A stretch of DNA of 36,333 nt, from positions 1 to 36,333 of the forward strand of contig JAVEPB010000118.1 of NCBI GenBank assembly GCA_030922375.1. Direction: 5' to 3'. A model generated the notes under the pieces. The model did no database searches. It was not told the DNA's origin and saw only the letters and a list, made by a program, of their open reading frames with translations. Position numbers and translations under genes: made by a program. Below, one piece after another: positions 3,864 through 35,636 of the stretch (positions are counted from its first letter, which is position 1; each line of letters starts with the position of its first letter). The DNA is from a bacterium (GTDB taxonomy: Bacteria > UBA8248).

Positions 3864-3891
3864 TTGGCGGACGAGGCGCTAAATTTATGAT
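3864..3891 (+). promoter_or_regulatory. Possible promoter for the DinB-family gene
   Basis: TTGGCG (3864-3869), a 16-nt spacer and TATGAT (3886-3891) lie 60 nt upstream of the DinB-family start, in the divergent gap with emrA. The -10 is good and the -35 is partial. Confidence 0.4.
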
Positions 3892-3950
3892 ATTTTCCAT
3901 CAATTCTCCGAAACCCATTTCATTTATCATTAAACAGGACGGGACAGACC

Positions 3951-4505
3951 ATGACCCCCGAAGAAAAATTCGACGCGGCAATTGATTCGGCGATGAACGA
4001 CCGCCGGGAATTAATTGGATTTCTGGAAAACCAGACCGACGCCCAGGCCGGATGGGAGCCCACCGACGGGGAATGGTCAATCGCCCAGGGGGTGGAACAC
4101 ATTCTGCTCACCGACGTTTTCGCCAGAAAAATGCTCGTCGACACCCTCGAAACTGCGCAAAAAACGGGGGCCTGGGACAATGCACCCGATAAACCCCAAA
4201 AGCTGTCCTCGGACCAGCTCAGGCGACGCGAGCAGGGCCCCGTTCCCGCACCCGAACATTTACTCCCCGTGGAGGGCCGCCCTCTCTCCGAGATGATTCC
4301 GCTGCTCATGCCCGCCCGTGAGGAGACGAACAGGGCCCTCGCCCCTTATCGCGAGCGCGATCTCGAGCGCCTGAACCCGCCGGCCACCCGCTACGGAGAT
4401 TTAAATATATACGACCGGATGTACTACATGGGAATTCACGACGCCCTGCACAAAGAGCAGATGGAGCGCATCACGCAGGCAAGCGGGTTTCCGGCTGCCG
4501 GGTAA
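3951..4505 (+). CDS. DinB/YfiT-family metalloprotein
   Basis: 184-aa cytoplasmic protein of the DinB-like four-helix-bundle superfamily. Members bind one divalent metal by three His and include thiol-S-transferases (bacillithiol or mycothiol dependent), hydrolases and proteins of unknown role. Here His50 (in GVEHIL), His163 and His167 (in GIHDALHKEQ) are at the expected positions on helices 2 and 4, and the EWSIAQGVEH segment is a typical DinB_2 signature. The middle part (residues 75-110), Pro- and Gln-rich, is a long loop. The ATG at 3951 has a weak AGGACGGG upstream. It is transcribed divergently from the emrAB pair, so a link to detoxification is possible but is inference from position only. 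Confidence 0.82.
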   Translation: MTPEEKFDAAIDSAMNDRRELIGFLENQTDAQAGWEPTDGEWSIAQGVEHILLTDVFARKMLVDTLETAQKTGAWDNAPDKPQKLSSDQLRRREQGPVPAPEHLLPVEGRPLSEMIPLLMPAREETNRALAPYRERDLERLNPPATRYGDLNIYDRMYYMGIHDALHKEQMERITQASGFPAAG

Positions 4506-4600
4506 TCGGCTCGTTGGGAGCGATTCGGCGCGGCCGGAGCGAACAGTATGGCGGGAGAGAGTTGGGGATTTTTCGGAAGACAGGTGCTGGAGACAGGCGC

Positions 4601-6454
4601 CTAGCTTTCGATCTTCTTCTTTTCCTCGAGCAGCGACTCCGCTGACTCGGGCAGATTGGGGCCGATCTGGTTTTTTTTCACCCTGAGCACCTTCTCGCCC
4701 TTCCCTTCCTTCACAAAAACCCAATCCTTCGTTTCGCCGCGAGCGAAGGTGATCGGCCCGAATTTCTTTCCGCTTTTATCCTCGAGAGACACCCGGGCCC
4801 GGAATTTCTCGAAATCGCGGGGTCCCTCCTTCGCCTCTCCCTCGTGTTCGAGGTCCTTCAGCATGGTGAGAAGGCTTTCGATCGCGCCGCCGTTCGCCTT
4901 CCTTCCGGAAGGGTGTTTGATCGTCCAATCCTCCCCGCTTCGGTGAAACACCATTTCAGCACTCGAGGGGAATTTCACCGCCACCCGGGCGATATCCTCT
5001 TCTTTCTCGATTTTCGCGAGGCGGCGGTCGCTCAGATGGAAAGAGGTTCTCAGTATCTTGTCAAAATCCTTTTTGTCGAACGCGAACAGACGTTTCGTCC
5101 CTTCGAATTGGCCGTAGGTCTTCTTGCCGCCGGTCAGAGGCCCTAGGGTGAGGGATTTTTTCACCTCGGGGCCCTCTTTTTTCTTCTTGATCCAGACGCT
5201 CACCCGGTTAACCCCCTTCGGGGCGAGGCCGTACTTCGCCAAATCCTCCGGCTCATCCACGAATTCCACCGCGTTGGCCCACTTGATGTCCCACAATACA
5301 TCGTCGATGTGTTTGTGCCGGGAGGGGACCCGGACCGCCTTCCCGCCCGGCCGCGTGACGCGCATGTCCCATTTTTTCTTGGCCAGCCGCTTGATGTCGA
5401 TGGACCCGGACGCCCGCTCCAGCTTGAGGCGGGTGATATGGTCCACATCGAAATCGATGATGTTTTTATTCCTCAGCTTGAAAGGCTCCCTCGGAAAATC
5501 CTTGACGACATCGTTGCCGATGAGCATCACCGGCCCGCCCGAGATTCTCCGCGCGTAGTGGACCACCTGCCTGACCATTTTCCCCTGGCGGCCCGGAAGC
5601 GACGCTTCGGTCGGAAGGCCGAGAAGAATCCCATCTCCTTTTTTGTCCTTCTTATCTTTCTTGTCCCTAAAAAGGCGAATCGCATAGACGGGAATGTCGA
5701 GCCCGTAGGGGGTGAGATCCTTGGGGTCCTCTTTCACGAACCGGAGCACTTTTTTGTATTTAAGGGCCGAGAGCACGCTGTCCGCCTCGGTCGAATCCGC
5801 CTTGTCCTTGACGGGAGCCGTCATCTCCCAATCCTCCTTGCCCTTGCGAACCACCGTGAAGGGGTTCTCCCCTTTCGGCTCGACGACGAAGCGGTGAATC
5901 TCATCGGGCTCCATCGAAACGATGGCGCGATCGCGAAGATCAAATACCTTTTTGTTGATTTTGTTGATGTCGTCGATCTTCAGGGTAAAGATGGAGGTTT
6001 TGTTGCTCTTGAGCGAGGCGTACCGAAATTCGCGGGTGGGCGTCCGGTCCCCAATCTGGACGATGACATCGTTTTCGTCCTTGAGGCCGAAGGTGATGGT
6101 CATCCGGGGCTTGTCGAGGCCGAATTCCGAGATGTCGGGCATCTTGCCGAGCCGGCGGTGGGGCTTGAGATCCGCGGCCGCCTTGATGACGATCTCCTGT
6201 TGGTCCTCGTCCATCAGGGCATCGACCGGTTTCACGAAGCGCCAGTTTTTTTCGGACCGGATGAGTTGAAAGGGAGCCTCCTTGCGCTGAAGGGAAATTC
6301 TCATCAGACGCTTCGAGTCGATCCCCTTGAGGATTTTGGCTTTTCGATCCTCCTCGGCCTTTTTCTCGCCGGCCCATTTCACATCGTAGAGGTAATAACC
6401 CAACCCGGCGACGAGCAGGACAAGCAGGAGGATGAGATTTTTTTTCGGGTTCAC
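4601..6454 (-). CDS. DUF4340 domain protein, last gene of Gld-like ABC operon
   Basis: 617-aa membrane-anchored periplasmic protein. One N-terminal transmembrane segment (about residues 7-24, Leu/Val rich) is followed by a charged Lys/Glu stretch and then repeated DUF4340-like units, in which segments of the type FGLDKPRMTI, PYGLDIPVYAI and KYGLAPKGV recur with Lys-rich linkers. DUF4340 proteins lie next to GldA/GldF/GldG-like ABC genes in many Gram-negative phyla, and their biochemical role is not established. The start is GTG at 6454, which overlaps the TGA of the GldG-like gene as GTGA. An upstream in-frame start would add 22 residues read from within the neighbour gene. No enzyme motif is visible, so a structural or substrate-binding role at the membrane is the best guess. 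Confidence 0.85.
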   Translation of the reverse strand: MNPKKNLILLLVLLVAGLGYYLYDVKWAGEKKAEEDRKAKILKGIDSKRLMRISLQRKEAPFQLIRSEKNWRFVKPVDALMDEDQQEIVIKAAADLKPHRRLGKMPDISEFGLDKPRMTITFGLKDENDVIVQIGDRTPTREFRYASLKSNKTSIFTLKIDDINKINKKVFDLRDRAIVSMEPDEIHRFVVEPKGENPFTVVRKGKEDWEMTAPVKDKADSTEADSVLSALKYKKVLRFVKEDPKDLTPYGLDIPVYAIRLFRDKKDKKDKKGDGILLGLPTEASLPGRQGKMVRQVVHYARRISGGPVMLIGNDVVKDFPREPFKLRNKNIIDFDVDHITRLKLERASGSIDIKRLAKKKWDMRVTRPGGKAVRVPSRHKHIDDVLWDIKWANAVEFVDEPEDLAKYGLAPKGVNRVSVWIKKKKEGPEVKKSLTLGPLTGGKKTYGQFEGTKRLFAFDKKDFDKILRTSFHLSDRRLAKIEKEEDIARVAVKFPSSAEMVFHRSGEDWTIKHPSGRKANGGAIESLLTMLKDLEHEGEAKEGPRDFEKFRARVSLEDKSGKKFGPITFARGETKDWVFVKEGKGEKVLRVKKNQIGPNLPESAESLLEEKKKIES

Positions 6455-26486: not shown

Positions 26487-27317
26487 TCACCCCATCACAG
26501 CCCCCGAATCGACGAGAATCGCCTGTCCGGTAATGGTACACGCATCCTCGCTCGCCAGGAAAGCGGCCACCCTTCCGATGTCCTCGGGGGTCTGCTCCCG
26601 CCCCAAGGGGGTCAAACCGACGAAATAGTCAAAGACTTCGCGGGGTGTCATTCCCTTGAGATGGGGGATTTTTTCGCCGTAGAGCGGGGCCAGTTTCCGC
26701 CACATGGGGCTCCAAATCAGGCCCGGACAAACGGCATTGGCGGTGATGCCGTCGCGGGCGGCTTCCCGGGCGAGGGCCTGGGTGAAATTGATGACCGCCG
26801 CCTTGGACGCACTATAGTGCGGAATGGCCTCGGTGCCCTGCCGGCCCGCGCGGGAGGAGATGTTAACGATCCGCCCCCATTTCGCCTCTTGCATGCCGGG
26901 CAGCGCCGCCCGGCACAAATGGAAAACGCCTTTGACGTTCACCTCGTAGGCGGCGTCCCAATCCTCGCTCGAGATATCCGAGAGCGGGAGGCCCAGCTTG
27001 AAATCCTGCCCGCCGATCACGCCCGCGTTGTTCACCAAAATATCAAGGCCGCCCAACTCCTCCCGGCTCCGTGCGACGGCGGCCTCGCAATCGTCGGCAT
27101 CTGTGACATCGAGTGGAAGGGCGACCGCCTTCGCGCCGGCGGCCTCCAACTCCTCCCGGCAGGTTTTCGCATCTTCGGGAAATATATCCGCCAGCGCGAG
27201 GGAGGCGCCTTCCTCGGCGAGACACCGGGCAATCCCCCGCCCGATCGACCCGCCGGCGCCGGTGATCAGTGCGGCGCGGCCTTCGAGTCTCCCCGGCCGG
27301 GCGGCGGCGCCCACCAT
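26487..27317 (-). CDS. SDR family NAD-dependent oxidoreductase
   Basis: 276-aa classical short-chain dehydrogenase. TGAGGSIGRG at residue 19 is the cofactor glycine motif; Asp44 at the end of beta-2 (ALADIF) favours NAD over NADP; NNAGV is the structural motif; catalytic Ser154/155, Tyr168 and Lys172 (YSASK) are all there; the C-terminus has the usual LASEDACTITGQAILVDSG. It lies last in the catabolic cluster, 6 nt after the carboxymuconolactone-decarboxylase-like gene. In pathways of the fuconate type an SDR oxidises the 2-keto-3-deoxy acid, so a role like that is possible here, but substrate cannot be read from sequence. ATG at 27317 is used. Confidence 0.92.
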   Translation of the reverse strand: MVGAAARPGRLEGRAALITGAGGSIGRGIARCLAEEGASLALADIFPEDAKTCREELEAAGAKAVALPLDVTDADDCEAAVARSREELGGLDILVNNAGVIGGQDFKLGLPLSDISSEDWDAAYEVNVKGVFHLCRAALPGMQEAKWGRIVNISSRAGRQGTEAIPHYSASKAAVINFTQALAREAARDGITANAVCPGLIWSPMWRKLAPLYGEKIPHLKGMTPREVFDYFVGLTPLGREQTPEDIGRVAAFLASEDACTITGQAILVDSGAVMG

Positions 27318-27323
27318 GATCGG

Positions 27324-27731
27324 CTATTCGTCCGATCCGAAGCCCGACATCGTCCGGCCCTGGGCGATCCATTCCTCATAAACCTTGATGCTTTCGAGCA
27401 CGGCGGGGGCTCCGACATAGGTAAACATCTGAACGATGACCTCTAAAATCTCCCTGTCGGTGGCGCCATAGCTGGCCGCAGCCGAAAAGTGCGCCCGGAG
27501 CTGGTTGAACATTCCCGTCACGCAAAGAGCGGCGATGGCACACAGCTCGCGGGTTTTGTGATCGATAACGTCACGGTCGTAGAGCCCTCCGTGGACGCTT
27601 CGCTGGAATATCATCGAAAATCCAGGATCAAGATTATTGAGACGCTCGAAAAGCGCTTCCGAATACCCCTCGCCGTATTGAGCGTCGCCGCGCTTTATCG
27701 CCGGGGGGTAGAATTTTTCATCATCCGTCAT
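27324..27731 (-). CDS. Carboxymuconolactone decarboxylase family protein
   Basis: 135-aa small all-helical protein of the CMD/AhpD-like superfamily. Residues 60-100 hold the family core with ELCAIAALCVTG, the Gln-x-x-x-His pattern (NQLRAHF) and YGATDREILEVIVQ, as in the PcaC-type members rather than the CxxC peroxidase AhpD (no CxxC here). PcaC decarboxylates gamma-carboxymuconolactone in protocatechuate breakdown, but many members have other or unknown roles. The ATG at 27731 follows GGGGAG by 7 nt. It sits between the FAH-family gene (44-nt gap holding an 18-bp palindrome) and the SDR gene. Confidence 0.83.
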   Translation of the reverse strand: MTDDEKFYPPAIKRGDAQYGEGYSEALFERLNNLDPGFSMIFQRSVHGGLYDRDVIDHKTRELCAIAALCVTGMFNQLRAHFSAAASYGATDREILEVIVQMFTYVGAPAVLESIKVYEEWIAQGRTMSGFGSDE

Positions 27732-27749
27732 CGGTTGACTCCCCTCTCA

Positions 27750-27767
27750 GATGACCGGCCGGTCATC
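27750..27767. repeat. Perfect 18-bp palindrome in the catabolic cluster
   Basis: GATGACCGGCCGGTCATC reads the same on both strands with no spacer, in the 44-nt gap between the FAH-family gene and the CMD-like gene, about 20 nt upstream of the latter's ATG. It may be a dimeric regulator's operator giving an internal promoter, or an mRNA hairpin. No regulator gene is in the cluster. Confidence 0.65.
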
Positions 27768-27775
27768 CTCCAGCC

Positions 27776-28702
27776 CTAACCCTCGACAACCGGATTAACG
27801 AGACGCCCGAGACCCTCGACTTCGACCTCGACCACATCCCCCGGCTGGAGGAACGAGGGCACCTCCCGCGCGTAGCCCACGCCCGACGGCGTCCCGGTCA
27901 GGAAGATGTCGCCCGGCTCGAGCGTAAAGCCTTCGGAGAGCGAGGAAATCATCGCCGGAATGTCGTGGATCATGTTCGCGGTGGAGGAGTCCTGCCTGAG
28001 ATCGCCGTTCACCCAGCTTTTCACTGTCATGTTCATCGGATCCCCGTAATCTTCACGGGGAACGATATAAGGGCCGAGCGGGCAGGAATCGTCGAGGGTT
28101 TTTCCCTTGAAAATCTGTTTATGTCTCCGCTGAATGTCCCGGGCGGAGATGTCGTTGGCGCAGCAATAGCCGAAGATGTGATCGTAGACTTTATCCCTGG
28201 GAATATTGATCCCGCGCCTGCCGATGATGACGGCGATTTCGGCTTCGTAGTCGTACTTCTCAGAGCAATTGTGCCTTGGAATTCCGGCCCCGTGGCCAAT
28301 GAGGGTGGAAGGCGCTTTCGTGAAGAAAATCGGCTGGTCGAGCTCGACCTTTGTCGTTTGGACGTCCTTGGCCTGGAGCCCCTCGGCCACATGGTCCTTA
28401 TAGTTGAGGCCCATGCAGAGGACATTTTTCCCCGGGCTGGGCACCGACGCCATGAACTTCACCTCGTCGGCGTCCACCAGAACCTCACTTAAATCAGCCG
28501 TCTTCTTCTCGGCCTCGGCGGCGAGTGCGTGGACCTTCGGGCCCAGCTCCCCCCAGTTTTCGATAAGCGCGACCATCGAGGCCGGATTCAAGCTGCCGTC
28601 GCCGATCAGCCCCGAGAGGCGGGCGATATGTCCGATCTTCTCGCCGACATAGATGCCGACGCGGGGAACCCCCCTGTAGTCGTAAGTCAAAAGCCTTGTC
28701 AT
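27776..28702 (-). CDS. Fumarylacetoacetate hydrolase family protein
   Basis: 308-aa FAH-fold enzyme. Metal ligands Glu153 and Glu155 (YEAEIAVI) and Asp184 (NDISARD) are present, along with the NVLCMGLNYKDHVAEG and PIFFTKAPSTLIGHG segments and GDIFLTGTPSGVG. The family hydrolyses or decarboxylates 2,4-dioxo acids, including fumarylpyruvate, 2-oxohept-3-ene-1,7-dioate and 2,4-diketo-3-deoxy-L-fuconate. The N-terminal 75 residues are the usual FAHD-type extension. ATG at 28702 follows GAGGAGAC by 4 nt. It lies 78 nt after the enolase-superfamily gene. With an SDR and a dehydratase next door a diketo-sugar-acid hydrolase is a fair guess; aromatic breakdown is the alternative. Confidence 0.88.
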   Translation of the reverse strand: MTRLLTYDYRGVPRVGIYVGEKIGHIARLSGLIGDGSLNPASMVALIENWGELGPKVHALAAEAEKKTADLSEVLVDADEVKFMASVPSPGKNVLCMGLNYKDHVAEGLQAKDVQTTKVELDQPIFFTKAPSTLIGHGAGIPRHNCSEKYDYEAEIAVIIGRRGINIPRDKVYDHIFGYCCANDISARDIQRRHKQIFKGKTLDDSCPLGPYIVPREDYGDPMNMTVKSWVNGDLRQDSSTANMIHDIPAMISSLSEGFTLEPGDIFLTGTPSGVGYAREVPSFLQPGDVVEVEVEGLGRLVNPVVEG

Positions 28703-28780
28703 TTTGTCTCCTCAGGTTTTTCGGCGCGCGCCGCCCGGAGAGGATGCCTCCCCTGGCGAAGGCCGGCTGCTTATCTGTTA

Positions 28781-29869
28781 TTACGAAGAAGAGAATTTCT
28801 TGATCGCCTCCGGGGTGAACTCGACACCGTGTCCCGGCACGTCGCACACCCGCATCATGCCGTCCTTGGCCACGAACTCTCGGGTGAGAGAGCCCGCCGG
28901 AATCAGCCCCATGAACTCCACCATAAACCCACGCGGGGTGGCGCCGACGAGACTGATCGATACCTCGTGAGCGAGATGGCTGCTCAGTGAAATATTGAAG
29001 GCATCCGCCAGGTGGGCCACCTTCATGAACTCGGTGATGCCGCCGCACCGGCAGACATCGGGCTGAAGATAGTCCACCGCCCGGCGCTCGCACATCTCCC
29101 TAAAACCCCAGCGCATATAATGATTCTCTCCCGCCCCGACCGGGACCATGCTCTTCTCGGCAACCTCGGCCAGATCGTCGAGCGAGTCGGCGAGGACGGG
29201 TTCCTCGAACCAGGCGACGCCATACTCGGCCAGCATGCAGGAGACCTCGATCGCCTCGCGCACGTTGAATTTCTGATTCGCATCGGCGAACAGTGTAAAA
29301 TCCTCGCCCAGCTCTTGCCGAAGGAGCGCCGTCCGCTCCTCGTCCCGATCGGTTCCGATCTTGAATTTGTAGGCGCCGAATCCGCGGGAGGCGAAATCCT
29401 GCGCCTCGGCGACCAGTTCGGCATCGCTCAGGGTGTGCCATCCCCCGCTCGCGTAGACGGGAACATCGTCCCTGAAGCCGCCTAGAAGGCGGTGCAGCGG
29501 CAGGCCCGCCGCCTTGCCCACGATATCCCAGCAGGCGATATCCACCGCCGAAAGGGCCCACACCCCCAACCCGCCGCGCATGCGCGCCTTGTTCGGCCCC
29601 CATAGGCGCTGCCAGAGCGCTTCGGGCGCCAGGGCGTCCTGCCCTACGGCCAGCGGAGCCAGCTCATTTTGGATGTAAGGGACGACGGCGGAGGTGGCGG
29701 CTCCGCCGAGGCCCATCGAAAATCCGGTTCCGCTCGGCCCGTCCTCGGTGTGGACGTTCACCACGGCGAAATCGACATGCGTATAGGTGCCGAGCGCGCT
29801 TCCAATCGGCTTATCGAGCGGCAGGGGCATCTGTACCGCCTCGATGGCCCTGATCTTCAACTTAGGCAT
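28781..29869 (-). CDS. Mandelate racemase/muconate-lactonizing (enolase superfamily) enzyme
   Basis: 362-aa enzyme with the two-domain enolase fold. The active-site set is complete for the mandelate racemase subgroup: Lys168 and Lys170 (YKFK), metal ligands Asp196 (FADAN), Glu222 (WFEEP) and Glu248 (GAGEN), and the His-Asp pair Asp271 (QPD) and His298 (SSHLAHE). This spacing nearly matches mandelate racemase itself. The subgroup includes mandelate racemase and acid-sugar dehydratases such as fuconate, rhamnonate, galactonate and tartrate dehydratases. The start ATG is at 29869, 17 nt after the acyl-CoA dehydrogenase stop. Substrate cannot be read, but in this cluster an acid-sugar dehydratase role is the best fit. 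Confidence 0.92.
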   Translation of the reverse strand: MPKLKIRAIEAVQMPLPLDKPIGSALGTYTHVDFAVVNVHTEDGPSGTGFSMGLGGAATSAVVPYIQNELAPLAVGQDALAPEALWQRLWGPNKARMRGGLGVWALSAVDIACWDIVGKAAGLPLHRLLGGFRDDVPVYASGGWHTLSDAELVAEAQDFASRGFGAYKFKIGTDRDEERTALLRQELGEDFTLFADANQKFNVREAIEVSCMLAEYGVAWFEEPVLADSLDDLAEVAEKSMVPVGAGENHYMRWGFREMCERRAVDYLQPDVCRCGGITEFMKVAHLADAFNISLSSHLAHEVSISLVGATPRGFMVEFMGLIPAGSLTREFVAKDGMMRVCDVPGHGVEFTPEAIKKFSSS

Positions 29870-29886
29870 CGCTCAAAGAATCTCCT

Positions 29887-31062
29887 CTAAAGAAAAGGCA
29901 TGGTCCGAATCCGCATGGCCTGGTTCGTTCCGTCCGAGTGAAGGAAGCTTGTCGCGTCGCGCAGGTATTTTTCCATCGGGGCCTCCGTCATGTAGCCCAT
30001 ACCTCCCCATACCTCGAGCGCCCGCGTGGCGATCCGGAAGGACGCCTCCGAAACAAAACACTTGGTCATGAAACCCATCTTCGGATCGTAGAGATCGTCC
30101 TGATTCGCCGTCCAGGCCGCGTAGTGAAGAAGGCTGCGCGAGGCTTCGTAGTCCGCGAAGCAATCGGCGAGCAAAAATCCGACCGCCTGATGGTCGATGA
30201 TCGGCTTCCCGCCCTGTACCCGGTTCCGCGCATACTCCAGCGCCTCCTCGTAGGCGGCCCGCGCCGTCCCCAAGACGGTGGCCGCCGCCTCGATGTTCGA
30301 GCCGCGCACGAATAGCTTGCGCGCCTCCATCGCCTCGTTCACCTCGGACACCCGGTTGGCATCCGGGATGCGGCAATTCTCGAAAATCAACTCGGCATTC
30401 TGAGAAAGCCGCTGGCCCATCTTGTCGTGAACGCGTCCGTAGGTAAAACCTTCCATGTCGGGCGTGGCTATGAACAGCGTCACTCCCTCGTTGACGCCTT
30501 TCGTCGTGTCGGTGCGGAGCGACATGAAATACAGTTTGGCGACACCGCCGTTGCTGATGAAATGCTTCATGCCGTTGACCACCCACTCATCGCCGTCGCG
30601 GACGGCGGTGGTCCGCATCCCGGCGTCGGGGCTGCTGTAGGGAATGATATTGTCCGATCCGGAGTTGGGCTCCGTCGAGCCGACGGCGAAGTGAAAGCGA
30701 TGGTCCTCGAGAAACGCTGGCAAATACCGGGCGCGGTGATCGTCATTCGCCAGGCGATGGAAGAAATGCGAAATCTTCCAGGTCTGATCGAAGGTGACGG
30801 CAATCCCCAGATCGCCCCAGGCGAGTTCCTCACCGACCAGGCACAGGGTCAGGACATCCGCGCCGCCGCCGCCCATCTCCTCGGGAAGGGCGAGAGTCCG
30901 GAGTCCCAGGCGGCTCCCCTTCTCCACTACCTCCCAGGGAAAGCGCAGGGCCGGATCGGCGATTTTCTCCTGCTCGTGGGCGATGGGCCGAATCTCCCGC
31001 TCGGCGAAATCGTGCGCCAATTTTTGGAGCGCTATCTGCTCGTCAGTGAGGCGAAAATCCAT
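29887..31062 (-). CDS. Acyl-CoA dehydrogenase-like flavoprotein, catalytic Glu replaced by Asp
   Basis: 391-aa flavoprotein of the acyl-CoA dehydrogenase family, first gene of the cluster. The N-terminal helical domain has LTDEQIALQKLAHDFAERE; the flavin-binding beta-domain has AVGSTEPNSGSDN and WVVNGMKHFISNG; the C-terminal domain ends with EVWGGMGYMTEAPMEKYLRDA. Aligned by RDA and GTN, the position of the usual catalytic base (Glu in YEGTN of medium-chain type enzymes) is Asp377 (SDGTN). Some family members put the base elsewhere (isovaleryl-CoA dehydrogenase, on another helix), so this may not mean inactivity. Strong AAAGGAG lies 7 nt before the ATG at 31062. It may act on an unusual acyl-CoA or non-CoA substrate. 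Confidence is high for family, low for reaction. Confidence 0.9.
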   Translation of the reverse strand: MDFRLTDEQIALQKLAHDFAEREIRPIAHEQEKIADPALRFPWEVVEKGSRLGLRTLALPEEMGGGGADVLTLCLVGEELAWGDLGIAVTFDQTWKISHFFHRLANDDHRARYLPAFLEDHRFHFAVGSTEPNSGSDNIIPYSSPDAGMRTTAVRDGDEWVVNGMKHFISNGGVAKLYFMSLRTDTTKGVNEGVTLFIATPDMEGFTYGRVHDKMGQRLSQNAELIFENCRIPDANRVSEVNEAMEARKLFVRGSNIEAAATVLGTARAAYEEALEYARNRVQGGKPIIDHQAVGFLLADCFADYEASRSLLHYAAWTANQDDLYDPKMGFMTKCFVSEASFRIATRALEVWGGMGYMTEAPMEKYLRDATSFLHSDGTNQAMRIRTMPFL

Positions 31063-31200
31063 GGGGAAACTCCTTTCAGAAAATCAGGCCGCGCAGGTAG
31101 CCCTGACGAGCCGCCGCGCCGGATAATAAAGACATAAAATTTGAGGCGATGTTATCCCGCCCCCCCGGATTGGCGCAAGGCCGCCAGGGGATAAAATCCT

Positions 31201-31230
31201 CCGAATCTCCCCCTCTTCAAGGGGATTCGG
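31201..31230. repeat. Hairpin-forming inverted repeat
   Basis: CCGAATC (31201-31207) plus CCC (31209-31211) pair with the 10-nt arm 31221-31230 (GGGGATTCGG), with one bulged T. No T-run follows on either strand, so it may be an operator or a transcript-end signal from neither side. Confidence 0.45.
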
Positions 31231-31263
31231 AAGACGACTCCTCGATTCAATCCTTTTAAAATA

Positions 31264-31292
31264 TTGATATTTTGCTATAGCTGTCATAGGAT
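31264..31292 (+). promoter_or_regulatory. Predicted promoter of the PhnDCE-like importer operon
   Basis: TTGATA (31264-31269), 17-nt spacer, TAGGAT (31287-31292), 80 nt upstream of the binding-protein ATG (31373). -35 matches 5 of 6 and -10 4 of 6. A direct repeat copy lies in the spacer. Confidence 0.55.
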
Positions 31293-31305
31293 TTGCCTAT
31301 AGCTG
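31275..31305. promoter_or_regulatory. Direct repeat CTATAGCTG x2, 22 nt apart
   Basis: CTATAGCTG occurs at 31275-31283 and 31297-31305, starts 22 nt apart, close to two helical turns. Both have a TTTGC lead-in (TTTTGC and ATTTGCC). The first copy is within the promoter spacer and the second just downstream of the -10, so a repressor binding both could block transcription. Confidence 0.5.
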
Positions 31306-31372
31306 AACGGGCATGAACAATCGAATTTTCGGCGGCGTTTTCAGCCATCCCGATTCCTTCGTGGAGACATCA

Positions 31373-32269
31373 ATGGTGAAAATTTGGGCTCTCGCGGTGC
31401 TTGCCGCGGCGGGCATTGCTTTCCTTCCGCCAAATGCAGAAGCGGCGGCAGCGACCGCTAAGGCGGTCGCTACCCTCCGGATCTCGGCGATCCCCGACGA
31501 GGCGCCGACGGAGTTGATACGCAAATTCAAGCCGCTTGCCCGTTATCTGGAAAAAGAGCTGGGCACCCGCGTCAAATTCATCCCGCTGGTCAATTACGCA
31601 GCCACCGTCGAGGCCCTCGCGGCGGGAAAAGTCGATCTCGTCTGGTACGGAGGCTTTACCCATGTCCAGGCCCGAATCCGCACCAAGGGCAAAGCGGTGC
31701 CGCTTGTCATGCGCAGGCGCGATCTGAAATTCAGGAGCAAATTCATCACCGCAACCGGCAGCGGGATCAAAACCCTGAAGGATCTCAAGGGCAAGACCTT
31801 CACCTTCGGCAGCGTGAGCAGCACCTCGGGCCACCTCATGCCGCGCTTTTTCCTCAAGCTCGCGGGAGTGGTTCCCGAAAGGGATTTTTCGAAATTCAGT
31901 TTCTCTGGCTCGCACGACGCAACGGCCAAATGGGTGGAAGCCGGAAAAGTCGAGGCCGGCGCCATGAACGAAGCGGTCTGGGACAAGCTCGTCGAATCGG
32001 GAAAATTGGACCCCAAGAAAATCCGCGCATTCTACACCACGCCCGCTTATGTGGATTACAACTGGACGGCCCGAACCGGCCTTCCCCGGGAAACACTGAC
32101 CCGCCTGGCGGCCGCTTTTCTCAAACTGGACAGCCGAAATCCCGTGCACAAGGAAATTCTCGACCTCCAGCGCGCGGAGGCCTACGTCCTCGCCTTCTCG
32201 GCCGACTTCAAGGGAATCGAGGCGGCGGCGAGGGATGCGGGCCTGCTGAAGAAAATCGCCACCCACTAA
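31373..32269 (+). CDS. PhnD-like ABC binding protein, putative selenate type
   Basis: 298-aa periplasmic protein of the phosphate/phosphonate-binding superfamily. A signal peptide (about residues 1-25, cut near AEAA) precedes LRISAIPDEAPTELIRKFKPLARYLEKELG. VNYAATVEALAAGKVDLVWYGGFTHVQARIRT follows, matching the group widely annotated as putative selenate transporter binding protein (the IPDE, TELxRKFKPL and WxGGFTxVQARxRT patterns are distinctive). The ligand is not established by sequence; phosphonate, phosphite or an oxyanion are alternatives. ATG at 31373 follows GGAG by 6 nt; an in-frame ATG at 31313 has no ribosome site and would put 20 polar residues before the signal peptide. It is followed by ATPase and two permeases. 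Confidence 0.85.
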   Translation: MVKIWALAVLAAAGIAFLPPNAEAAAATAKAVATLRISAIPDEAPTELIRKFKPLARYLEKELGTRVKFIPLVNYAATVEALAAGKVDLVWYGGFTHVQARIRTKGKAVPLVMRRRDLKFRSKFITATGSGIKTLKDLKGKTFTFGSVSSTSGHLMPRFFLKLAGVVPERDFSKFSFSGSHDATAKWVEAGKVEAGAMNEAVWDKLVESGKLDPKKIRAFYTTPAYVDYNWTARTGLPRETLTRLAAAFLKLDSRNPVHKEILDLQRAEAYVLAFSADFKGIEAAARDAGLLKKIATH

Positions 32270-32300
32270 ATCGCGATTTCCTCTGAACCGGAGACATCAA

Positions 32301-33121
<821 letters not shown>

Positions 33122-33125
<4 letters not shown>

Positions 33126-33976
33126 GCGCCACCGCCGCGCCGCCGCCGCGCCCTCCCCTGCCAGCTGGCCGCTTTACGATTCTCGCCGCCACCGGCGCGG
33201 CGATAATTTCCAGCTTTCACTACACGGGATTCAATCCCGCCCTCCTGTTTTATCCGGAATCGCTCGGGGCCATCGCCAGTTTTGGAATGGGTTTCCTCCC
33301 GCCGGACCTGAGCACCGGTTTTTTGGCCACAACGCTCAAACCCGCTCTTGAAACCATCCAGCTCGCCACGGCGGGTATGGCCCTGGCCCTGATTCTCGGG
33401 GTTCCGCTCGCTCTGATGGCCGCGGGCACGTTCCATCTGGGCGGCGCGCTTTTCGAGGGCGAACCGCCCGCCGGCGGCCTGCGAGGAACCCTCCGCGCCG
33501 CGCCTTACTGGATATCCCGCCTGCTGCTGAATGCGATGCGCTCGATTCCCGAGCTCATCTGGGCGCTCTTGTTCGTTCGCCTCGCCGGGCTCGGTCCCGC
33601 CGCCGGGATCCTCGGCATCGGCGTCGCCTATGCGGGCATTCTCGGGAAGGTGTTCGCCGAGATCATGGAAGGGACCGATATCAGCCCGGCGGCCACGCTC
33701 GTCGCCGCCGGATCGACGCGCCCCCGGGCAATCCTGTACGGGGTTCTTCCCGGAGCCTTCCGCACCCTTCTTTCCTACGCCCTCTACCGTTGGGAGTGCG
33801 CCATGCGGGCGGCGGCGATCCTTGGCTTCGTCGGCGCGGGCGGGCTCGGCCAGCAGATTGAAATCTCGATGCGGATGTTCGAGCACCATCGAACGGCCAC
33901 ACTGATCCTTGAGCTTTTCCTGTTGGTCGCTCTCGCGGACGCGATCAGCGCTCATCTCCGGAGGAAATTCGCATGA
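33122..33976 (+). CDS. PhnE-like ABC permease 1
   Basis: 284-aa inner-membrane permease with about six transmembrane helices. The EAA-loop analogue is GSTRPRAILYGVLPGAFR (about residue 203). The signature stretch RAAAILGFVGAGGLGQQIEI is nearly identical to that of permease 2. GTG at 33122 overlaps the ATPase stop; the end overlaps the next ATG as ATGA. The Pro-rich N-terminus (residues 6-15) is cytoplasmic. Together with permease 2 it probably forms a heterodimeric channel. Confidence 0.9.
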
Positions 33977-34836
33977 GCGGCGCCGAGCCGAACGCGGGGA
34001 TTCCCGGCCGCCCGGCAACGCGGGAGAGGTGGGTCTGGCTCGGCGGCCTGGGGGCGCTTCTGGCCTGGAGCTTTTCGGCGGCCGAGGGAGAGATTTGGGG
34101 AATCTTCACCAGTGAAGCGCTTGGCCAAGCCGGGGAGTATTTGGGGAATTTCTGGCCGCCGGCGGTGGAGACGGGCTTTCTCGCCATCGCTTTTCGGGCC
34201 GCCGCCGAGACGCTGGCAATCTCCATTGGGGGGACGGCCATCGCCGCTGCGGGGGCGCTGGCGCTCCTCTATTTCGCCTCCTCCGAGGATATGATCGGGG
34301 CTGGCGGGGAGTGGGAGTCCGCATCGCCCCGGCACCGGGCCGCCCGGCGGGTCCTTCACACCGCCTCGCGCGCGGCTCTGAACATGTTCAGGACAATTCC
34401 CGAGATCGTCTGGGCGATCTTTTTCGTCTTCGCGGTGGGGCTGGGCGCATTCGCCGGGGTCCTGGCGCTGGGTATCCACAACGCCGGCGTCATGGGCAAG
34501 CTCTACGCCGAGACGGTCGAAAACGTCCAGCGCGGCCCGGTCGAGGCGCTGCGGGCGGGCGGCACGCCGAGGTTCACGGCATTCGCTTACGGGGCGCTTC
34601 CCCAGGCCTCTTCCCAACTCATCGCCTACACCCTCTACCGCTGGGAGGTGAACATCCGCGCGGCGGCGATTCTCGGCTTCGTCGGCGCGGGCGGGCTCGG
34701 CCAGCAGATGCACATCTCGATATCCCTGTTCCTCGAATCCCGACTCGCCACCCTGACCATCGCCACCTTCATCCTCGTGAACGCCGTCGATCTTCTGAGC
34801 GGCTGGTTGCGCCGAAAGCTCGAAGCGTCGTTCTAG
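33973..34836 (+). CDS. PhnE-like ABC permease 2
   Basis: 287-aa paralogue of permease 1. It shares LNMFRTIPEIVWAIFF, AGGTPRFTAFAYGALPQ (EAA-type loop) and ALNMFRT/LLNAMRS-type turns with the first copy, and a 35-bp stretch of identical DNA (34675-34709 against 33824-33858). The ATG at 33973 overlaps the first permease's TGA. The operon ends here, followed by a terminator. The pair probably makes the channel of the putative selenate or phosphonate importer. Confidence 0.9.
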   Translation: MSGAEPNAGIPGRPATRERWVWLGGLGALLAWSFSAAEGEIWGIFTSEALGQAGEYLGNFWPPAVETGFLAIAFRAAAETLAISIGGTAIAAAGALALLYFASSEDMIGAGGEWESASPRHRAARRVLHTASRAALNMFRTIPEIVWAIFFVFAVGLGAFAGVLALGIHNAGVMGKLYAETVENVQRGPVEALRAGGTPRFTAFAYGALPQASSQLIAYTLYRWEVNIRAAAILGFVGAGGLGQQMHISISLFLESRLATLTIATFILVNAVDLLSGWLRRKLEASF

Positions 34837-34913: not shown

Positions 34914-35636
34914 CTACTCGAAATAAATCGCGACGGCTCGGACGGGCGAGCCGGTACCGCCGCGCATCTTGAGGGGCAGGCAGGAGAAGAGGAACTTCGT
35001 GCCGGCAACCTCTTTTAAATTCGCCATGTTCTCGACGTTGAGCACCTTGCGTTCGCGGCAGACCTTGTGCGCCCAGTAGCCGCGGTCCTTCATGGCGAGC
35101 GAGGAATCGACGCTGGGCGAGTCGATTCCGACGTTGACGCATCCCCGGTCGGCCAGCCAGTTCATCGCTTCTTCGCTGAGGCCGGGGTACTTGTAGAGGT
35201 AATCGTTGAAATCGCCGCCGTAGTATTTCTCATAGTGGCCCGTCCAGATGAGCACGCTCCCCTTATCGGGCACCTCGAGGCCGGCGGCCTGACAGGCGTC
35301 TTCAAGATCGCCGGCACTCATCCAGTCGTCGGTTCCGCAAAACTTGCTGAGGTCGAGGCAGATCGCCTCGGTGAAGAACCACTCGAAGCCGAGCTCGTCG
35401 ATGGTCTCGGCCCCGGGCGCGCTGTCCATGTGTACGAATGCGTCCACGTGGGTCGGGCCGTGGTCGCTCATGAGAAGGATGTTGGTGGTCGAGGTATGCC
35501 CCGAGGGCGAGTTCCGGTATGCGTAGGCGGTCTCCTCGTGCGTCTTGGCGGGATAGACGACGGTCCGTTGATGGCCGGGATAGACGGGCATCCCGCTGTA
35601 AATATCCTGGGTCAGATCGACGATTTTCCATTTCAT
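34914..35636 (-). CDS. Cyclase family (KynB-like) metal-dependent hydrolase
   Basis: 240-aa enzyme of the cyclase/kynurenine-formamidase family (PF04199). The metal-binding segment SDHGPTHVDAFVH at residues 57-69 gives His59, His63 and Asp65, the hallmark of the family (HxGTHxDxxxH type). GIDSPSVDSS near 170 and FSCLPLKMRGGTGSPVRAVA at the end are also typical. Members hydrolyse N-formylkynurenine, isatin or similar amides; substrate is not known here. ATG at 35636 follows GAGGGG by 9 nt. It lies 72 nt after lgt and converges with the importer operon. Confidence 0.88.
   Translation of the reverse strand: MKWKIVDLTQDIYSGMPVYPGHQRTVVYPAKTHEETAYAYRNSPSGHTSTTNILLMSDHGPTHVDAFVHMDSAPGAETIDELGFEWFFTEAICLDLSKFCGTDDWMSAGDLEDACQAAGLEVPDKGSVLIWTGHYEKYYGGDFNDYLYKYPGLSEEAMNWLADRGCVNVGIDSPSVDSSLAMKDRGYWAHKVCRERKVLNVENMANLKEVAGTKFLFSCLPLKMRGGTGSPVRAVAIYFE

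Follow-up and report, generated by a model that had tools for sequence, protein, structure and literature searches.

Route 3 of L-fucose and L-rhamnose breakdown uses three enzyme classes, namely a mandelate racemase (MR)-type dehydratase, a short-chain dehydrogenase/reductase (SDR), and a hydrolase of the fumarylacetoacetate hydrolase (FAH) type (PMC11199699). In the part of the SAR202 report consulted here, a cultured SAR202 clade is described as having expanded MR-type enzymes and SDRs in proposed nonphosphorylative sugar-acid pathways and as growing better on fucose and rhamnose (PMC10444878), and the consulted parts of this and a second report propose that the MR and SDR paralogues run parallel pathways (PMC10444878, PMC6946804). 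FAHD and YisK proteins tautomerize oxaloacetate and also show a weak decarboxylase activity (PMC10825186). Here, we describe a five-gene operon in contig JAVEPB010000118.1, a 36.3 kb contig from a 4.06 Mb metagenome-assembled genome (MAG). The entire contig was analyzed and is referred to as the window. The operon encodes an acyl-CoA dehydrogenase (ACAD)-fold protein, an MR-type enolase, an FAH-superfamily enzyme, a carboxymuconolactone decarboxylase (CMD)-family protein, and an SDR, and may serve the breakdown of a small hydroxy acid that is probably sugar-like. Among acid-catabolic modules, it counts as a variation on known ones that is specific to one lineage, and one of its enzymes deserves biochemical study.

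Like route 3 (FucC/FucF/FucG and LRA5/LRA6), the locus combines the classes of an MR-type dehydratase, an SDR 4-dehydrogenase, and an FAH-type hydrolase in one cluster. In contrast to route 3, the equivalog cut-offs of the dehydratase and the hydrolase were missed, the operon has extra ACAD, CMD, and PF04199 genes, and the window cluster yielded neither a sugar dehydrogenase nor a mutarotase nor a FucB-type lactonase, a PF04199 hydrolase being present instead. As in SAR202 (Ca. Lucifugimonas), to the extent covered by the consulted part of the source, the host lineage is one of marine heterotrophs in which MR and dehydrogenase genes have multiplied; the pathway descriptions in that part do not mention FAH, CMD, or ACAD proteins.

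A five-gene operon conserved within one family

Five intact co-directional open reading frames (ORFs) occupy the minus strand from position 31062 to position 26487. In order of transcription, they encode the ACAD-fold flavoprotein (29887 to 31062, 391 aa; PF02771/PF02770/PF00441), the mandelate racemase-subgroup enolase (28781 to 29869, 362 aa; PF02746 and PF13378), the FAH-superfamily enzyme (27776 to 28702, 308 aa; PF01557), the PcaC-like CMD-family protein (27324 to 27731, 135 aa; PF02627), and the SDR (26487 to 27317, 276 aa; PF00106/PF13561). The intergenic gaps are 17 nt (ACAD/MR), 78 nt (MR/FAH), 44 nt (FAH/CMD), and 6 nt (CMD/SDR). The original prediction had placed a cluster of enolase, FAH, SDR, CMD, and ACAD genes at 26487 to 31062, and its ORFs and coordinates were confirmed, with the enzyme classes borne out by Pfam. 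The divergent intergenic region at 31063 to 31312 is the expected site of the operon promoter; the sigma-70-like matches there, on the minus strand at 31287 to 31258, were weak (9 of 12 consensus positions).

The nearest relatives of the window are "Nitrospinota" MAGs, and the host probably belongs to the GTDB phylum UBA8248. The search for relatives yielded 17 further genomes, all from one family, and beyond them nothing closer than "same domain," a gap that is expected for a deep, uncultured lineage. Genome-wide counts rest on searches of the genome collection, and gene calls at neighboring loci are crude (the longest ORF was taken, in GC-rich DNA) and were used only where homology supports them. 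The original prediction had proposed looking for the same gene order elsewhere and held that the lack of a conserved order would speak against it. All five genes were present in the same order in loci of genera g1, g2, g3, g4, and g6, i.e., in five of the six genera available, and in g5 (genome G008, locus L013) the ACAD and MR genes and the beginning of the FAH gene are followed by the contig end. Gaps in the other loci ranged from 9 to 18 nt (ACAD/MR), 20 to 91 nt (MR/FAH), 15 to 67 nt (FAH/CMD), and -4 to 6 nt (CMD/SDR), with two exceptions for CMD/SDR. In locus L034 (genome G004) the SDR match was partial and the gap was not computed, and in locus L123 of genus g2 the two genes are separated by a 1.2 kb insertion, which holds a PF00144 gene of the beta-lactamase/esterase fold at 3874 to 5025.

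The dN/dS ratios of the window genes versus their relatives were 0.02 to 0.17 for pairs with unsaturated dS, indicating that all five genes are under purifying selection. FAH and CMD orthologues were found in 16 of the 18 family genomes and in none of the 368 genomes outside the family, and this family alone showed the MR, FAH, CMD, and SDR genes together as a core. When 84,980 species were scanned (one genome per species), no MR-bearing locus outside the family carried at least two of the other four genes at close identity, and the MR homologues found there were approximately 40% identical or less, the sole exception being a 63% copy in an Acidimicrobiia MAG. The five genes constitute a real operon, present in almost every sequenced member of an uncultured marine lineage, and its retention across the genera of this host lineage points to a core food source.

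The MR, FAH, CMD, and SDR proteins

In the MR protein, residues K168-x-K170, D196, N198, E222, E248, D271, H298, and E318 were invariant among the cluster orthologues aligned, and the protein has the hallmarks of the mandelate racemase subgroup (KxK on strand 2, D/E/E metal ligands, and an H/D dyad). It scored 131.8 bits against the L-rhamnonate dehydratase model NF011968 (cut-off 393) and 198.4 bits against the L-talarate/galactarate dehydratase model NF047820 (cut-off 500). The nearest solved relatives, at 217 to 222 bits, were uncharacterized MR proteins and a 3,6-anhydrogalactonate cycloisomerase, and galactarolactone-type, talarate, and fuconate enzymes were more distant structural relatives; for structure 4ggb, which is among these relatives, the attached enzyme name is our presumption. 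L-fuconate dehydratase (FucD) structures matched distantly, scoring 125 bits and ranking lower than many other MR proteins, and no curated FucD model was among the profile matches. MR-type genes number 4 to 13 per genome in the family, compared with 0 to 4 in most other sampled families (exceptions, 8 and 28) and with 80 in SAR202 according to the consulted part of the source.

Two further MR neighborhoods were observed. A second MR paralogue, 61 to 66% identical, occurs in L112 to L119 and L040 in another conserved neighborhood, together with an NMT1-type binding protein, a 3-hydroxyisobutyrate-dehydrogenase-like gene, metallo-beta-lactamase-fold genes, and a sulfatase; the 63% copy in the Acidimicrobiia MAG is a copy of this paralogue and reflects transfer or a binning error. 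In the window's own genome (locus L166, contig C245), an MR gene adjoins an FAH gene, approximately 30% and 39% identical to those of the window, respectively, near a D-2-hydroxyacid dehydrogenase and a thiamine pyrophosphate enzyme, which may represent a parallel module.

The FAH protein belongs to the FAH superfamily (PF01557, 245.6 bits), and its metal-site residues E153, E155, and D184 (E-x-E plus D) were invariant. Its nearest solved relatives were 8sky, which we take to be Bacillus subtilis YisK (233 bits), and HpaG (219 bits), with 1gtt and 6iym among the nearest structures, whereas the rhamnonate-pathway hydrolase 8gsr scored 127 bits. It missed the cut-offs of the 2,4-didehydro-3-deoxy-L-rhamnonate hydrolase model NF053535 (149.8 versus 500 bits) and of the HpaG models TIGR02303 (176.9 versus 276.4 bits) and TIGR02305 (119.3 versus 228.7 bits). 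Thus, it resembles the YisK/FAHD oxaloacetate tautomerases and the HpaG decarboxylase/isomerase in its nearest solved structures and in its retained metal site, but differs from YisK and HpaG in falling below the HpaG cut-offs and in sitting in a catabolic operon.

The CMD protein was modeled with a predicted local distance difference test score (pLDDT) of 83 and has a PcaC-type fold, its best match being 2af7 (E value 1.5e-4, template modeling score [TM] 0.5). H81 and R61-E62 were invariant, and H81 is the conserved His shared with PcaC, the 4-carboxymuconolactone decarboxylase. Unlike PcaC, the protein scored 51.1 bits against TIGR02425 (cut-off 155.7), and no Pca pathway genes were identified in the cluster. 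The description "PcaC-like" in the original prediction thus holds for the fold and fails for the identity, and identification as PcaC was rejected because the TIGR02425 cut-off was missed. An AhpD-type peroxidase was rejected because the protein has no CxxC. CMD homologues in plasmid collections were less than 38% identical among the matches listed. The SDR is of the classical type with an intact catalytic set (S155, Y168, and K172), and is likely NAD-linked.

An ACAD-fold protein with Asp at the catalytic base position

The first gene of the operon encodes a protein with the ACAD fold and FAD-site motifs but without the catalytic Glu of the x-E-G-T-N-Q motif. Asp377 takes the place of this Glu (HSDGTNQ for IYEGTNQ) in 12 of the 12 cluster orthologues with a full-length alignment, and the preceding residue is Ser instead of Tyr. 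This set left out the G004 copy (L034), which is split by assembly or a frame change. The tblastn match to that ACAD gene (L034, contig C219) falls into two pieces, whose cause may be a frameshift, a genuine break in the gene, or an error of assembly. The G008 copy (L134) also has Asp at the base position. Two further features set the subfamily apart, namely an 8-residue insert after the FAD-site GSD motif and RVQGG in place of the usual R-x-Q-F-G. By both sequence and fold, the protein is closest to acryloyl-CoA reductase and to short- and medium-chain ACADs; its AlphaFold model (pLDDT 89.9) matched the medium/short-chain ACADs 1ukw and 1buc with a TM of 0.89 to 0.92. Hence, it resembles the AcrC, SCAD, and MCAD members of the family in its fold (TM approximately 0.9) and FAD-site motifs and departs from them in the altered base, the Ser, the insert, and the RVQGG sequence.

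The base position is variable in close paralogues from the same genomes, where it is occupied by Ala, Glu, Gly, Asp, Phe, or Asn. In a tree of 72 ACAD sequences, a clade with Ala (approximately 70% identity) and the cluster Asp sequences shared one half, and a total of ten base-residue changes was required; several joins are unsure because of long branches. ACAD-like proteins with RVQGG and the 8-residue insert are expanded in the lineage, with dozens of copies in the 18 genomes (L174 to L209, L160 to L162, and related family loci). None of the ACAD paralogues lay beside MR, FAH, or CMD homologues, and their surroundings yielded no more than a gene of the cyclase or SDR family (30 to 35%). ACAD homologues in plasmid collections were less than 38% identical among the matches listed; the only homologue seen beside annotated ETF-type genes is a distant one on a Shinella plasmid (36.8%), which carries both the insert and the Asp and lies beside genes for the beta-subunit of electron transfer flavoprotein (ETF), an FAD-binding protein, and a dioxygenase. 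This neighborhood makes electron transfer to ETF plausible from the gene context.

The original prediction suggested that the ACAD and CMD genes might define a new route. A new catabolic route is conceivable, though we regard it as doubtful, in which a base-replaced ACAD-fold flavoenzyme acts on the same small acid as MR, SDR, and FAH and belongs to an expanded, largely lineage-specific subfamily that moved from acyl-CoA alpha,beta-desaturation to other chemistry. The base-swapped subfamily offers a defined group of enzymes, and the textbook family does not reveal their chemistry. If it is noncanonical, it would explain part of the use that these bacteria make of otherwise resistant marine organic acids.

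Candidate pathways and the upstream region

Locus L120 of genus g3 has a PF04199 "cyclase" gene upstream of the ACAD gene, in the same direction and with a gap of 45 nt, suggesting that the ancestral unit probably comprised six genes (cyclase-ACAD-MR-FAH-CMD-SDR) and that the PF04199 gene was probably an original member of the operon. In the window, this gene (34914 to 35636, minus strand) is 3.9 kb from the ACAD gene, and a divergent Phn-type transporter lies between them. The metal motif of the encoded metal hydrolase, H59-x3-H63-x-D65-x3-H69, was invariant; against TIGR03035, the kynurenine formamidase/isatin hydrolase model, the protein scored 50.6 bits (cut-off 223).

Our preferred reading, which we hold tentatively, is that of a single catabolic operon, ancestrally of six genes, that breaks down a small carboxylic acid of the polyhydroxy or alpha-hydroxy type by a nonphosphorylative route. 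The PF04199 hydrolase would produce the acid by opening a lactone or amide, and MR would take the alpha proton of this acid (through Lys170 or His298) in a dehydration or epimerization that would lead to a 2-keto-3-deoxy-type acid. The SDR would then oxidize a hydroxyl of the MR product to yield a beta-dicarbonyl, which FAH would cleave, tautomerize, or decarboxylate to pyruvate or oxaloacetate-type products. A by-product, either a beta-keto compound or a lactone, may be decarboxylated or isomerized by CMD. One intermediate or product may be oxidized by the ACAD-fold flavoenzyme, which would use Asp as its base and pass the electrons to ETF. This scheme would follow the logic of route 3 (PMC11199699) and of the parallel MR/SDR pathways proposed in the consulted parts of the SAR202 reports (PMC10444878, PMC6946804). 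The class of chemistry, i.e., dehydration or epimerization, oxidation, and cleavage of a hydroxy acid, is plausible because the catalytic residues of MR, FAH, and SDR are retained. The tight co-directional spacing across the family, the five-gene order, purifying selection, the intact MR, FAH, SDR, and cyclase catalytic sites, the adjacency of the cyclase in g3, the SAR202 parallel, and the abundance of MR genes are all in favor of this reading. The proteins of the operon are few and soluble enough for assay.

Several results weigh against hydroxy-acid degradation. None of the five proteins exceeded any curated equivalog cut-off, those of acid-sugar enzymes included, and the diketo-sugar-acid hydrolase is a more distant relative of FAH than the YisK/HpaG-type enzymes are. 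The cluster yielded no gene identified as a sugar dehydrogenase or sugar transporter, and the transporter neighboring the operon is of the Phn type and not a sugar-acid transporter. Moreover, we know of no role for ACAD or CMD proteins in the known acid-sugar routes.

A CoA-based or lactone-degrading pathway is a serious rival, and it is possible, if less probable, that the operon degrades a CoA-bound or carboxylated nonsugar acid, such as a lactone, a furanone, or a ring-cleavage product. In such a pathway, ACAD would desaturate a CoA ester, MR would catalyze an isomerization or cycloisomerization, FAH and CMD would be HpaG- and PcaC-like decarboxylases, and SDR would oxidize a hydroxyacyl intermediate. 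The proximity of FAH to YisK and HpaG-type enzymes, of CMD to PcaC-type proteins, and of ACAD to acryloyl-CoA reductase and short/medium-chain ACADs is consistent with these roles, as are the cycloisomerases among the structural relatives of MR. However, the cluster yielded no identifiable CoA ligase, CoA transferase, or hydratase, the ACAD protein lacks the catalytic Glu, and the HpaG and PcaC cut-offs were clearly missed.

It is unlikely that five unrelated enzymes with no common pathway are held together by general regional synteny. The downstream flank (SDR-M23-SecA) is also kept in the same order, implying that part of the order is ordinary synteny and that the short spacing combined with the changing upstream side says more than gene order by itself, and the genomes hold many paralogues of each class. 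On the other hand, nearly every locus keeps short gaps within the unit, and the five classes are functionally coherent as small-acid catabolic enzymes. Since no gene order is kept upstream of ACAD, the module is more than a frozen block.

The original prediction assigned the MR, SDR, and FAH genes to the breakdown of fuconate or rhamnonate, with the ACAD and CMD genes as unusual additions. The conserved cluster stood, with its order kept and its catalytic residues present, whereas the fuconate/rhamnonate identity was rejected as an assignment because the curated cut-offs were missed. Accordingly, although the operon has the same three classes as route 3 (PMC11199699) and MR carries KxK and the H/D pair, we consider it quite improbable that the operon is the known nonphosphorylating L-fucose/L-rhamnose route with two accessory genes; the rhamnonate dehydratase and diketo-rhamnonate hydrolase cut-offs were missed, fuconate dehydratase was a distant match only, and the sugar dehydrogenase, mutarotase, and lactonase families of the route were not seen among the window cluster genes examined. 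Nitroalkane oxidase uses an Asp base. The Asp in the cluster ACADs aligned, and the failure to identify a CoA-activating enzyme in the cluster, would fit a CoA-independent, nitroalkane-oxidase-like flavin oxidase acting on a nitro, amino, or hydroxy acid, with the other enzymes degrading the resulting keto acid, but this is highly improbable, as the sequence and fold are nearest to true acyl-CoA dehydrogenases and the position drifts in paralogues with Ala, Gly, Phe, or Asn.

The Phn-type ABC transporter of the window (31313 to 34836, plus strand), which comprises a substrate-binding protein, an ATPase, and two permeases, is divergent from the operon. Its substrate-binding protein passes TIGR04553, "putative selenate" (335 versus 250 bits), a model name that is itself a hypothesis and not a tested function. 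In genus g6, a Phn-type substrate-binding protein lies upstream of the operon in L122 and a permease pair in L121. Selenium metabolism was rejected as a theme because the "selenate" binding protein and the selenoprotein genes of genus g4 occur in different genera and outside the conserved unit. In g4 (L035, 1437 to 6060; L039, 693 to 3889), a glycine-reductase set lies between the cyclase and ACAD genes and consists of a grdC-type gene (above its cut-off), the C-terminal part of grdA, a grdE-type gene, and grdB. An in-frame TGA interrupts the grdB frame and precedes the sequence GTGTRSG, a pattern expected for selenocysteine, and the g4 lineage is presumably marine or sponge-associated.

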